DNA of 64,000 nt. It comes from Gemmatimonadaceae bacterium (GTDB lineage Bacteria > Gemmatimonadota > Gemmatimonadetes > Gemmatimonadales > Gemmatimonadaceae). The position numbers and the translations under genes were made by a program. The stretch lies in the NCBI GenBank assembly GCA_019637355.1, contig JAHBVT010000001.1:868001-932000 (forward strand). Direction: 5' to 3'. The notes beneath the pieces are model-generated. The model did not search any database and was not told the origin of the DNA. It was given only the letters and a program-made list of their open reading frames with translations. Positions 18,654 to 45,671 of the stretch are shown here, one piece after another (position 1 is the first letter of the stretch; each line of letters begins with the position of its first letter).

Positions 18654-18675
18654 GACGGATGACGGAGGACGGATG
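18654..18675. repeat. Triple GACGGAN heptamer element
   Basis: Three contiguous heptamers GACGGAT, GACGGAG, GACGGAT. The same triple occurs at 35241 and 44041, and in inverted orientation at 35310 and 44113. Here it sits 3 bp after the transglycosylase stop, just before the terminator stem, with a partial inverted copy (TTCCGTC) after it. Confidence 0.7.
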
Positions 18676-18680
18676 AGAGG

Positions 18681-18712
18681 AGGGGGCGCACCGAGCTATC
18701 GGCGCGCCCCCT
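18681..18712. terminator. Bidirectional terminator between convergent genes
   Basis: AGGGGGCGC pairs with GCGCCCCCT (9 bp, 14-nt loop), followed by CTTCC/TCTT-type pyrimidines. It separates the convergent transglycosylase and moaC genes. Confidence 0.6.
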
Positions 18713-18719
18713 TCCGTCT

Positions 18720-35230: not shown

Positions 35231-35240
35231 GCGTGAAGAC

Positions 35241-35330
35241 TGATGACGGAGGACGGATGACGGAAGGGGCGGGATCCGCGTTCCAGCGCAGAATCCCGCC
35301 CCGCTCAGCTTCCGTTCTCCGTCATCCGTC
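35241..35330. repeat. Inverted pair of GACGGAN triple-heptamer elements
   Basis: The left arm (35241-35265) contains GACGGAG GACGGAT GACGGAA. The right arm (35310-35330) is its near-exact inverted copy. They flank a 10-bp GC stem, making one long hairpin of about 30 bp with small bulges. Confidence 0.75.
35266..35302 (-). terminator. Terminator of pckA within the inverted element
   Basis: GGGGCGGGAT pairs with ATCCCGCCCC around a 17-nt loop, 35 bp after the pckA stop on the minus strand. It is extended by the flanking inverted heptamers. No T-tract. Confidence 0.55.
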
Positions 35331-42880: not shown

Positions 42881-44122
42881 TCAGCGCGGGCGGCGGAGCC
42901 AGTCCAGCGGATCCACCGCCCGCCCGCCGTTCGGGCGGATCTCGAAGTGCAGGCGTGGCGGCAGGTCGGGATCCGCCTGCCCGACGGTCCCGATGGTCTG
43001 GCCCTTGCGCACCTGCGTACCGCGGCGCGCGTGGATCTCCTGCAGCGAGGCGTACATCGAGTATGTGCCGCCGCCGTGCTGCACGATCATCGTCAGGCCG
43101 TAGGTGCCGGCCTGCTCCGCGAAGACCACCTCGCCGTCGGCGATGGCCTTCACCGGCGTGCCCGCGGGGGCGCCGATGCCCATCCCATTCCAAGTGATGG
43201 ACGTGTTGTTGGGACTCACCACGCGCCCATAGCGGTAGACGATGTTGCCGTCCACCGGCCAGTCGAGGCGGCCGAGGTCGGCCGTCGTGATCGAGCCCGC
43301 GACCGGTGCCGCACCGGTGCGCGCCGCCGCCGCTTCGGCGCGCCGCCGCGACTCCTCGATGGCCGCAATCACGTTCGTGAGCCGCTGCTCGTCGCGCGAA
43401 ATCTGCTGCAGTCGTTGCTGCGCCTGCCGCTGCTGGGCCTCGATCTGCGCCAGCGTACGCCCGCGCGCCAGCTCGAGGCGGCGGAGCCGCGCCTCTTCGT
43501 CGGCGCGCTCGCGGCGGTTGCTCTCGACGTCTCCCTGCAGGCGGACGAGCAAGAAGCGCTGCGCCGTGATCTGCGTGTTGAGTTGCTCGACGCGCTGCAG
43601 CAGCGCCCGGTCACGCTGCGCCACGAGATGCAGGTACTTGTAGCGCGCCACCAGTGCACCGAAGCTCTCGGCCGAGAGCAGGGCCTCGAGCGCGTGCAGC
43701 GGGCCGCGTTTGTAGATCTCCTGCACGCGGCGCGTCAGGATGGCGCGCTTGATGGCCAACTCGTCCTGCGTGCGCACCAGCGACGCGTTGACGTTCTCGA
43801 CTTCCGCGTAGAGCGATCCGAGCTGGTTGTCGAGGCTGCGCACGACGCGCGAGGTGGCCTGTGCTTGGCGGGCCAGGTTCTCCCGCTCGGTGGTGACGTT
43901 CTGGGCGCTGCGCTGGTACTCGCGCATCCGCTGCTCCAGCGTGCGCCGCTCCTCGCGCAGGCGCTCGAGCTCCAGCTGCTCCTGGCGCAGGCGCTCGGCG
44001 GATTGCTGGGCGGAGGGGGGGAGGGCCGGGCGTTGTTGGGGACGGATGACGGAGGACGGAAGCGACAGGGCCATAGCTACCGCGGCCAGCCGGAGGAGGC
44101 GCACGCGGCTGGCTTCCGTCAT
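42881..44122 (-). CDS. envC: EnvC-like murein-hydrolase activator (degenerate LytM domain)
   Basis: 413 residues. After a signal peptide come about 220 residues of coiled coil (ERLREERRTLEQRMREYQ and on), then a C-terminal M23/LytM fold. The first zinc-ligand motif of active LytM enzymes (HxxxD) is replaced by WNGMGIGAPAGTPVKAIADG, and only HFEIRPNGG remains of the second. The same loss occurs in E. coli EnvC, which activates amidases instead of cutting murein. Located 17 bp after ftsX, as expected for the FtsEX-EnvC system. The start codon and signal peptide lie within an inverted GACGGAN repeat pair. Confidence 0.88.
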   Translation of the reverse strand: MTEASRVRLLRLAAVAMALSLPSSVIRPQQRPALPPSAQQSAERLRQEQLELERLREERRTLEQRMREYQRSAQNVTTERENLARQAQATSRVVRSLDNQLGSLYAEVENVNASLVRTQDELAIKRAILTRRVQEIYKRGPLHALEALLSAESFGALVARYKYLHLVAQRDRALLQRVEQLNTQITAQRFLLVRLQGDVESNRRERADEEARLRRLELARGRTLAQIEAQQRQAQQRLQQISRDEQRLTNVIAAIEESRRRAEAAAARTGAAPVAGSITTADLGRLDWPVDGNIVYRYGRVVSPNNTSITWNGMGIGAPAGTPVKAIADGEVVFAEQAGTYGLTMIVQHGGGTYSMYASLQEIHARRGTQVRKGQTIGTVGQADPDLPPRLHFEIRPNGGRAVDPLDWLRRPR

Positions 44123-44135
44123 CCGTCTTCCGTCC
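44041..44135. repeat. Inverted GACGGAN triple-heptamer pair embedded in the envC 5' end
   Basis: 44041-44062 reads GACGGAT GACGGAG GACGGAAG; 44113-44135 is an inverted copy matching 20 of 22 positions. The right copy contains the envC start codon (GACGG-ATG-ACGG on the minus strand); the left copy encodes part of the signal-peptide cleavage region (SSVIR). Confidence 0.75.
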
Positions 44136-44139
44136 TGCC

Positions 44140-44984
44140 TCACACCTTCCTCAGGTGTCGCCCGACGGAGAGGGCGCTTCCCAGCAGCCCGATGCCCGCG
44201 CCCGCGACCACGCCGAAGACCGCCATCTGGGCGTCGAAGAACTGCACCTGGAACACCCAGCGCCCGGACACCTGTACGGCCGTCCACGTCAGGGCGAGGG
44301 CGAGCAGGCCGCCCAACGTGCCCTTGAGCGCGCCTTCGATCAGGAACGGGGCGCGGATGAAGCCGTCGGTGGCGCCCACCAGCCGCATAATCGCAATCTC
44401 GCGGCTGCGCGCGAGCACGGCCATCCGGATCGTGGACCCGATGATGATGATGGCGACGAGGGCGAAGGTCACGCCCAGTGCTATGCCGGCGCCGGTGGCG
44501 ATGTTCCGCAGCCGGTGCAGGTTCTCCACCCACTCCTCGCCGAAGCGCACATCGTCGATGAAGTCGTAGGTGTCGAGGCGCTTGGCCACGGCGCGCACGG
44601 TGGCGGGGTCGCGCATTCCCGGGCGTAGGCGCACCTCGATGCTGGCCGGCAGCAGGCCCGACTCGAACACGTCCTCGAACTCGCGGAGTTCGCGGCGGGC
44701 GCGCTCCAGCGCCTGCGTCTCGGTCACGAGCCGCACGCTCTGCACTTCGGGGAACAGCGCCACGTCATCGACGGCGGCGGCGGTGGCTTCCGGCGGCGTG
44801 CCGGCGGCGACGAAGCCGCGCACCTCCACCCGGTCCTCCACCTGCTGCAGCGCGGTGCGCAGGTTGAGCGCGACCAGCCCGAAGAGCCCGAAGGCGAAGA
44901 GCGAGAAGGCAATCGTCGTTACCGACAGCGCGCTCAGCATCGGCGCGCGGTCAAAGGCCCGGAAGGCTTCGCGGAAGGCGAGCT

Positions 44985-44988
<4 letters not shown>
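44140..44988 (-). CDS. ftsX: Cell-division ABC permease FtsX
   Basis: 282 residues: a first helix ([22 protein letters not shown]), a periplasmic domain (about 45-160, containing [15 protein letters not shown]) and three more helices. The conserved cytoplasmic segment [27 protein letters not shown] marks FtsX. With FtsE it forms the complex that relays ATP hydrolysis to EnvC in the periplasm to trigger septal amidases. 4-bp overlap with ftsE. Confidence 0.95.

Positions 44989-45671
<683 letters not shown>

Follow-up and report, generated by a model that had tools for sequence, protein, structure and literature searches.

Facing heptamer repeats at gene edges in a Gemmatimonadaceae genome, with a copy at the ftsX-envC junction, and change of the heptamer at kept hairpin positions in a related genus

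The ftsX-envC junction and its two arms

The window (the whole 64,000-nucleotide stretch of DNA that was analysed, from the genome called G000 here) carries the genes ftsE, ftsX and envC, and an inverted heptamer repeat lies where ftsX gives way to envC (table 1). Read on the envC strand, the ftsX stop is followed by 4 nt, a purine arm, 48 nt of codons, a pyrimidine arm and the codons for QQ, and it is after this QQ that EnvC can be aligned with its relatives. The arms, 24 nt each with 48 nt between them, are complementary at 22 of 24 positions (92%). A first-pass annotation of this DNA had described an inverted GACGGAN pair at the start of envC and an mRNA hairpin that it could form, and both descriptions held: the two arms lie in the open envC frame, and they are paired in the predicted fold of the envC-strand RNA at the junction (-82.1 kcal/mol, z -4.54, with 0 of 200 shuffles as good). 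A search against Rfam 15 gave nothing above the gathering score and only eight sub-threshold matches to microRNA models, by which a known RNA family of that collection was ruled out.

Table 1. Features of the ftsX-envC region and two further copies of the repeat family in the window
Feature	Position	Strand	Remarks
Upstream (purine) arm	44112..44135	-	GGACGGAAGACGGATGACGGAAGC on the envC strand; includes the ATG at 44122-44120
Loop, 48 nt	44064..44111	-	Native envC codons, RVRLLRLAAVAMAL; the GTG at 44104-44102 inside it aligns with the starts of relatives L002-L004
Downstream (pyrimidine) arm	44040..44063	-	GCTTCCGTCCTCCGTCATCCGTCC; codes LPSSVIRP, the end of the signal peptide, directly ahead of QQ
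ftsX stop, TGA	44140..44142	-	Shares bases with the in-frame GTG at 44143-44141 (GTGA), a candidate envC start
envC-like gene	42881..44122	-	M23 peptidase with coiled coil; extent taken from the ATG in the arm
ftsX	44140..44988	-	
ftsE	44985..45671	-	ABC transporter ATPase in the place of FtsE
Copy of the same family, convergent spacer	18654..18717		Arms enclose a GC-rich terminator-like hairpin
Copy of the same family, tandem spacer	35238..35330		Repeat occupies the whole spacer, up to the gene on either side; a GC-rich hairpin lies between the arms

The further claim that the repeat supplies the start codon of envC was not borne out. The ATG in the purine arm is one of three in-frame candidates, the other two being the GTG codons listed in table 1, and the alternative of an NTGA start, at the ftsX stop and in the envC frame, is present at 45 of 89 junctions compared. 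With three competing starts, how far the hairpin covers the actual start is uncertain. It is plausible from the predicted fold that a hairpin over the translation start of envC would lower the synthesis of EnvC relative to FtsX.

Both arms are absent from the junctions of G011 and G002 (EnvC 83% identical), G007 (79%) and G015 (71%), where a start in the envC frame coincides with the ftsX stop or lies no more than about 10 nt from it, and different residues close the signal peptide. Because these close relatives are without the hairpin at envC, it is best read as a gain of the G000 lineage.

Heptamer modules across the genome

Within the window, the 13-mer GACGGANGACGGA (at most 1 mismatch) had 12 matches compared with 0.90 expected, a number reached by 0 of 100 dinucleotide shuffles, and 11 of the 12 fell within three elements, at 18654, 35238 and 44041. 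This grouping into three arrays ruled out a code of lone words of the uptake-sequence type, and a short-palindrome pattern stayed at chance level (6 matches compared with 6.45 expected). In the 3.15-Mb genome, the 20-mer GACGGANGACGGANGACGGA (at most 1 mismatch) had 304 matches, overlapping registers included, and the reversed control pattern had 0. The family takes the form of facing heptamer arrays, [GACGGAN]n ... [NTCCGTC]n, in many gene spacers of G000; these are dispersed intergenic heptameric repeats with period 7 in tandem arrays, and exact variants such as GACGGAAGACTGAAGACGGA recur at many genome positions. An unselected sample, consisting of 13 stretches of 20 kb chosen without regard to the repeat together with the window (324 kb, 271 junctions), contained seven non-coding hairpins with 7-nt periodic arms and one that is mostly coding. 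By lag, the non-coding hairpins of this sample numbered seven at lag 7, none at lags 4-6 and 8-11, and one at lag 12.

Sixty stretches around pattern matches, together with the window, yielded 86 clusters, one of them (L054 125) being a similar-looking but different sequence. On the plus strand, two-armed clusters carry GACGGA on the left and TCCGTC on the right; single-armed copies are common; and the loops, from a few to more than 100 nt long and mutually unrelated by eye, contain a GC-rich terminator-like hairpin in several cases. By setting, 46 of the 86 clusters were tandem, 14 convergent and 2 divergent, with 23 overlapping a predicted coding sequence and 1 at an edge, as judged with a home-made gene finder whose starts are rough; 7 of the 54 junctions in the window are divergent. 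A distance of at most 12 nt to the gene at both edges was found for 18 of the 62 tandem, convergent or divergent clusters, the 23 coding overlaps being left out of this count. Facing pairs have the purine strand pointing into the spacer, and few of them lie between divergent genes. Two elements lie between tRNA genes (L062 1825-1884, between tRNA-Trp and tRNA-Glu; L062 2262-2313, between tRNA-Asp and tRNA-Leu), which indicates that codons alone do not account for the edge rule. In the same tRNA gene cluster or beside it, four heptamer clusters were counted (L062 1541-2313), two of them with tRNA ends 6-13 nt off on both sides.

In the 48 two-armed copies with at least two units per arm, the left arm is made of exactly three units 29 times and the right arm 34 times. 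At the free seventh base, an arm and its own partner were equal in 43 of 90 cases compared with 45% for shuffled partners (550 of 2000 shuffles were as high), on which grounds the copying of an arm from its own partner was rejected, and variant units were common to the two arms of one copy in 1 of 34 cases. The arms thus appear to have been copied from a common genome-wide pool and not from each other. As there is no excess of own-partner matching, the hairpin was not moved as a unit; this is plain at envC, because the loop there is native coding sequence that aligns with the relatives. The earlier description of a mobile or spreading repeat is supported as to the spreading, but not as to a single mobile unit.

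That a spreading repeat had been taken into the coding sequence of envC was supported for the downstream arm, which provides the codons at the end of the signal peptide. The annotation had named the same residues in repeat-free relatives as grounds for rejecting this capture, and it was not refuted by that comparison, because the near repeat-free relatives L002-L004 carry other residues at these codons. EnvC and four other predicted secreted proteins of G000 (L031, L034, L051 and L052) have a hydrophobic, signal-peptide-like N terminus whose last codons come from the pyrimidine arm; 43 combinations were examined for such capture, of which 20 were open, most of them without a signal-peptide-like stretch. 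Arithmetic alone dictates that a perfect heptamer array gives an identical seven-residue peptide in all three frames, and the pyrimidine strand of this array is open and gives a SVIRHPS-like peptide in each of them. The downstream module lies in the signal-peptide codons because the ftsX-envC spacer has only a few bases, and the signal peptide, presumably the part of EnvC with the freest sequence, would be where this module came to sit. The envC case shows how repeat DNA can turn into a signal peptide, here that of a protein of cell division. At the ftsX-envC junction of L025, direct TTGGCTG heptamers code CWLLAVGCWL in the EnvC signal peptide, an unpaired array that has been captured.

Elsewhere in the relatives, pattern matches numbered 161 in G007 and one in G011. 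At several orthologous spacers, G011 has other periodic inverted repeats (AGATGTR, AGTTGGG) where G000 has GACGGAN, and a pooled de novo hairpin scan of G011 revealed no clear excess at lag 7, with several unit types and many attC-like repeats. Six hairpins at lag 8 in 400 kb of G011 (L093 6886, L102 19577, L104 7479, L106 1552, L106 2544 and L107 4784) have inverted repeats whose unit is eight bases long (CACGAAGG/CACGAAGA), so that a period of 8 occurs in addition to that of 7. The same genome carries about 27 inverted repeats of the forms GCGGTTGTGGGGC..GCCCCACAACCGC and GGGTTTGGCGGGG.. over 65 kb (L107 14904 to L110 19862); these resemble the attC sites of a large chromosomal integron.

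Recurrence at ftsX-envC and change of the heptamer in genus g13

The ftsX-envC junction was compared at 92 distinct loci (30 from whole genomes and 80 named records, duplicates removed), the genomes being mostly metagenome assemblies; ftsX is present at 90 of them (not at L183 and L196), and the junction of L194 was unusable. Hairpins with period 7 and arms of at least 18 nt were observed at 11 of 90 ftsX-envC junctions compared with 2 among 268 neighbouring junctions in these loci, a contrast weakened by the inclusion of some comparison junctions without any spacer. A tree of 90 EnvC proteins needs 4 changes to account for the hairpin label, compared with 10.5 for shuffled labels, so that the hairpins of G000, G032 and genus g13 look separate. 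Long stems without a clear period 7 were not counted as heptamer hairpins; among these are the very long stems at the junctions of L145 (44 nt, with ACTGCGA units) and L176 (56 nt, with no clear period).

In g13, another genus of the same family, the hairpin was present at ftsX-envC in all 11 species examined, including L135, which is outside the automatic tree label. It begins 3-17 nt past the ftsX stop (36 nt in L135), and its right arm lies within the signal-peptide codons, mostly just before or near AQQ or GQQ and further upstream in L135. The main heptamer is GATGGTA in G028 and G104, GATGGCN in G099, G105, G106 and G055, GACGGGA in G102 and G107, GACGGTG in G101 and G103, and GATGGGA/GAGGGGA in G100. 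The cosine similarity was 0.909 for the two arms of one hairpin but 0.442 between species, a difference reached by 0 of 5000 permutations.

Two control loci, picked since a hairpin was present there in G028 or G055, were compared in ten species, the eleventh having no close match at either. Upstream of the acyl-CoA dehydrogenase gene, a heptamer hairpin begins at the stop codon and almost reaches the start codon in 9 of 10 species, and the tenth, G104, has an 8-nt spacer; in the convergent spacer downstream of NamZ, a heptamer hairpin was found in 5 of 10. Over the three loci, heptamer agreement was 0.754 within a genome (20 pairs) and 0.398 between genomes (199 pairs; 2 of 5000 permutations), as calculated from the 26 of 31 locus profiles with enough units; G055 and G105 are partly discordant, with heptamer types mixed between loci. 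At NamZ, an inherited loop hairpin, AGAGCCCG..CGGGCTCT, is present in 4 of 5 species, and the arms differ between most of them. The loops of the other two loci are less alike, with similarity above z 3 in 3 of 36 pairs at acyl-CoA dehydrogenase and 6 of 55 at ftsX-envC, compared with 4 of 199 between loci. These results showed that in g13 the position of the hairpin is kept while the heptamer changes, in both arms together. Downstream of NamZ in L267, an array of the eight-base unit GAGCGCAC was observed where other g13 species have heptamers.

Genus g13 offers a natural experiment, in which hairpins stay and the word changes jointly in both arms and across loci, as if each genome rewrote its hairpins in a dialect of its own. 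Here spread, overwriting and selection for pairing can be told apart, and a search for a cognate factor becomes possible.

Proposed explanation, alternatives and known repeat systems

We consider it likely that envC carries a single member of a repeat family specific to this genome, made of facing heptamer arrays whose modules are placed at gene edges. On this reading, an arm is one module of about three heptamers at a gene edge, with its purine strand (GACGGAN) pointing from the gene towards the spacer, and two facing modules form a hairpin around whatever sits between them. Copying between dispersed copies is the most likely means by which modules spread and old words are overwritten by the current one, and this copying would need no transposase or reverse transcriptase of the RAYT or RVT_1 kinds; neither the Y1 transposase (RAYT, PF01797) nor the reverse transcriptase (RVT_1, PF00078) was found in the G000 genome, which is 96% complete. 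Selection may keep the arms paired. Selection on pairing is favoured by the joint change of the arms and disfavoured by the many single arms, and because single-armed copies are common, pairing cannot be required everywhere. A bolder proposal, which we regard as rather unlikely, is that paired gene-edge heptamer modules form a genome-wide code of the Gemmatimonadaceae read by a putative trans-acting factor (a nucleic-acid-binding protein or a nuclease); a change in its specificity would then cause hairpins to be rewritten with their positions kept, and some modules would have been exapted as signal peptides, as in EnvC.

Several alternatives concern what the arms do where they lie. A hairpin kept between ftsX and envC by selection on EnvC dosage, acting as a translational brake, is possible but doubtful: it would fit the enrichment over neighbouring junctions, the presence in every g13 species, the apparent separateness of G000, G032 and g13 on the EnvC tree and the stable predicted fold, but other hairpin loci of g13 persist as well, including the convergent spacer after NamZ, copies in G000 lie between tRNA genes with no start codon there to cover, and most genomes are without a hairpin at ftsX-envC. 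Intrinsic terminators, of which the arms might be parts, were suggested by the GC-rich hairpin in several loops and by the purine 5' and pyrimidine 3' sides; we find this improbable, since at NamZ the arms change around a terminator-like hairpin that has been inherited, envC would be cut off by a terminator placed between it and ftsX, and there is no T run 3' of the envC arm. Although the arms are in the envC frame, it is almost certainly wrong to see them as ordinary EnvC codons under protein constraint, a reading refuted by the unrelated residues that relatives have there and by the same DNA word in non-coding spacers genome-wide.

Other alternatives concern how the arms arose. Slippage could build one array and fold-back template switching could write the inverted copy opposite, which would explain the complementarity without selection, and heptamer slippage was proposed by Mrazek 2007 (as cited in the consulted parts of PMC4679880 and PMC4692102); this has little to recommend it here, as own arms in G000 share neither the free base nor variant units beyond chance and the use of one heptamer across loci is left unexplained. 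It is very unlikely that envC captured a REP-like palindrome which a RAYT (Y1) transposase had moved as one unit. The G000 repeats are palindromic, intergenic, near gene ends and rare between divergent genes, as REPs are in the account drawn on (PMC3733652), but PF01797 is also absent from G002, G007 and G015 (18 of 61 genomes searched have one), the loops look unrelated by eye, the arms are independent and the envC loop is native, and the repeats are without the stem of 8-9 bp, the loop of 4-5 nt and the tag. It is scarcely credible that a reverse transcriptase, guided by an RNA template, added the heptamers in the manner of telomerase: a single template would yield one heptamer per genome, differing between genomes, but there is no PF00078 match in G007, G002, G015 or G011 either, the recurrent exact variants look copied rather than templated anew, and the native envC loop again argues against it. 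The preferred reading remains that of gene-edge modules copied between dispersed positions.

Heptamer repeats are widespread in bacteria, without an established mechanism or function in the published accounts cited here. DNA uptake sequences, a different kind of genome-wide word, are single words, many of them inside genes, that are read by ComP; in contrast, lone words are rare in the G000 window. Their dialects in the Neisseriaceae (Frye et al. 2013, PMC3630211) resemble the Gemmatimonadaceae heptamers in that a genome-wide word differs between related species. The REP elements treated by Di Nocera et al. 2013 (PMC3733652) comprise GTAG and CGTC families, the GTAG type being held to be moved by RAYT. 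As far as described in the consulted part of that paper, they are palindromic, intergenic, near 3' ends and sometimes coding at N termini, as in G000, but have short stems, small loops and tags and no heptamer periodicity. The direct TAACTGA repeats of Beggiatoaceae (MacGregor 2015, PMC4679880) are likewise genome-wide heptamer arrays at gene edges with occasional capture in protein ends; unlike the G000 family, they are, in the sections consulted, direct and nearly never inverted, lie upstream of starts and use one heptamer across phyla. Holder et al. 2015 (PMC4666352), consulted in part, is also among the literature cited. Beyond the Frye, Di Nocera, MacGregor and Rehm papers, we found in the open-access literature no description of heptamer switching at fixed positions or of such repeats in Gemmatimonadota.

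The closest counterpart is given by the GGGAATC and GGGGA(C/T)T heptameric repeats of Xanthomonas and Nostoc, whose function is unknown (Rehm et al. 2015, PMC4692102). According to the part of that report drawn on here, GGGAATC repeats occur as facing inverted pairs, 70 in one Xanthomonas genome and 75 in another, carry their purine-rich side on the coding strand where they follow a stop and on the non-coding strand where they precede a start, and lie rarely between divergent genes and mostly between the same genes in two species. They share with the G000 family the dispersed intergenic heptamers, the facing pairs and the edge rule; however, the G000 heptamer is a different one, the arrays have three units here and four there, and GACGGAN contains no G run of three or more, which the quadruplex described in that report needs. 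As GACGGAN has GG only, the G000 family is of a related kind but does not itself belong to the GGGAATC repeats. Facing heptamer repeats are thus of a known kind. What distinguishes the Gemmatimonadaceae from the GGGAATC repeats, as reported in the consulted part of that paper, is that species have different heptamers at fixed positions and that the arms enter signal-peptide codons; the switch of heptamer from species to species at fixed, paired positions is the new part.
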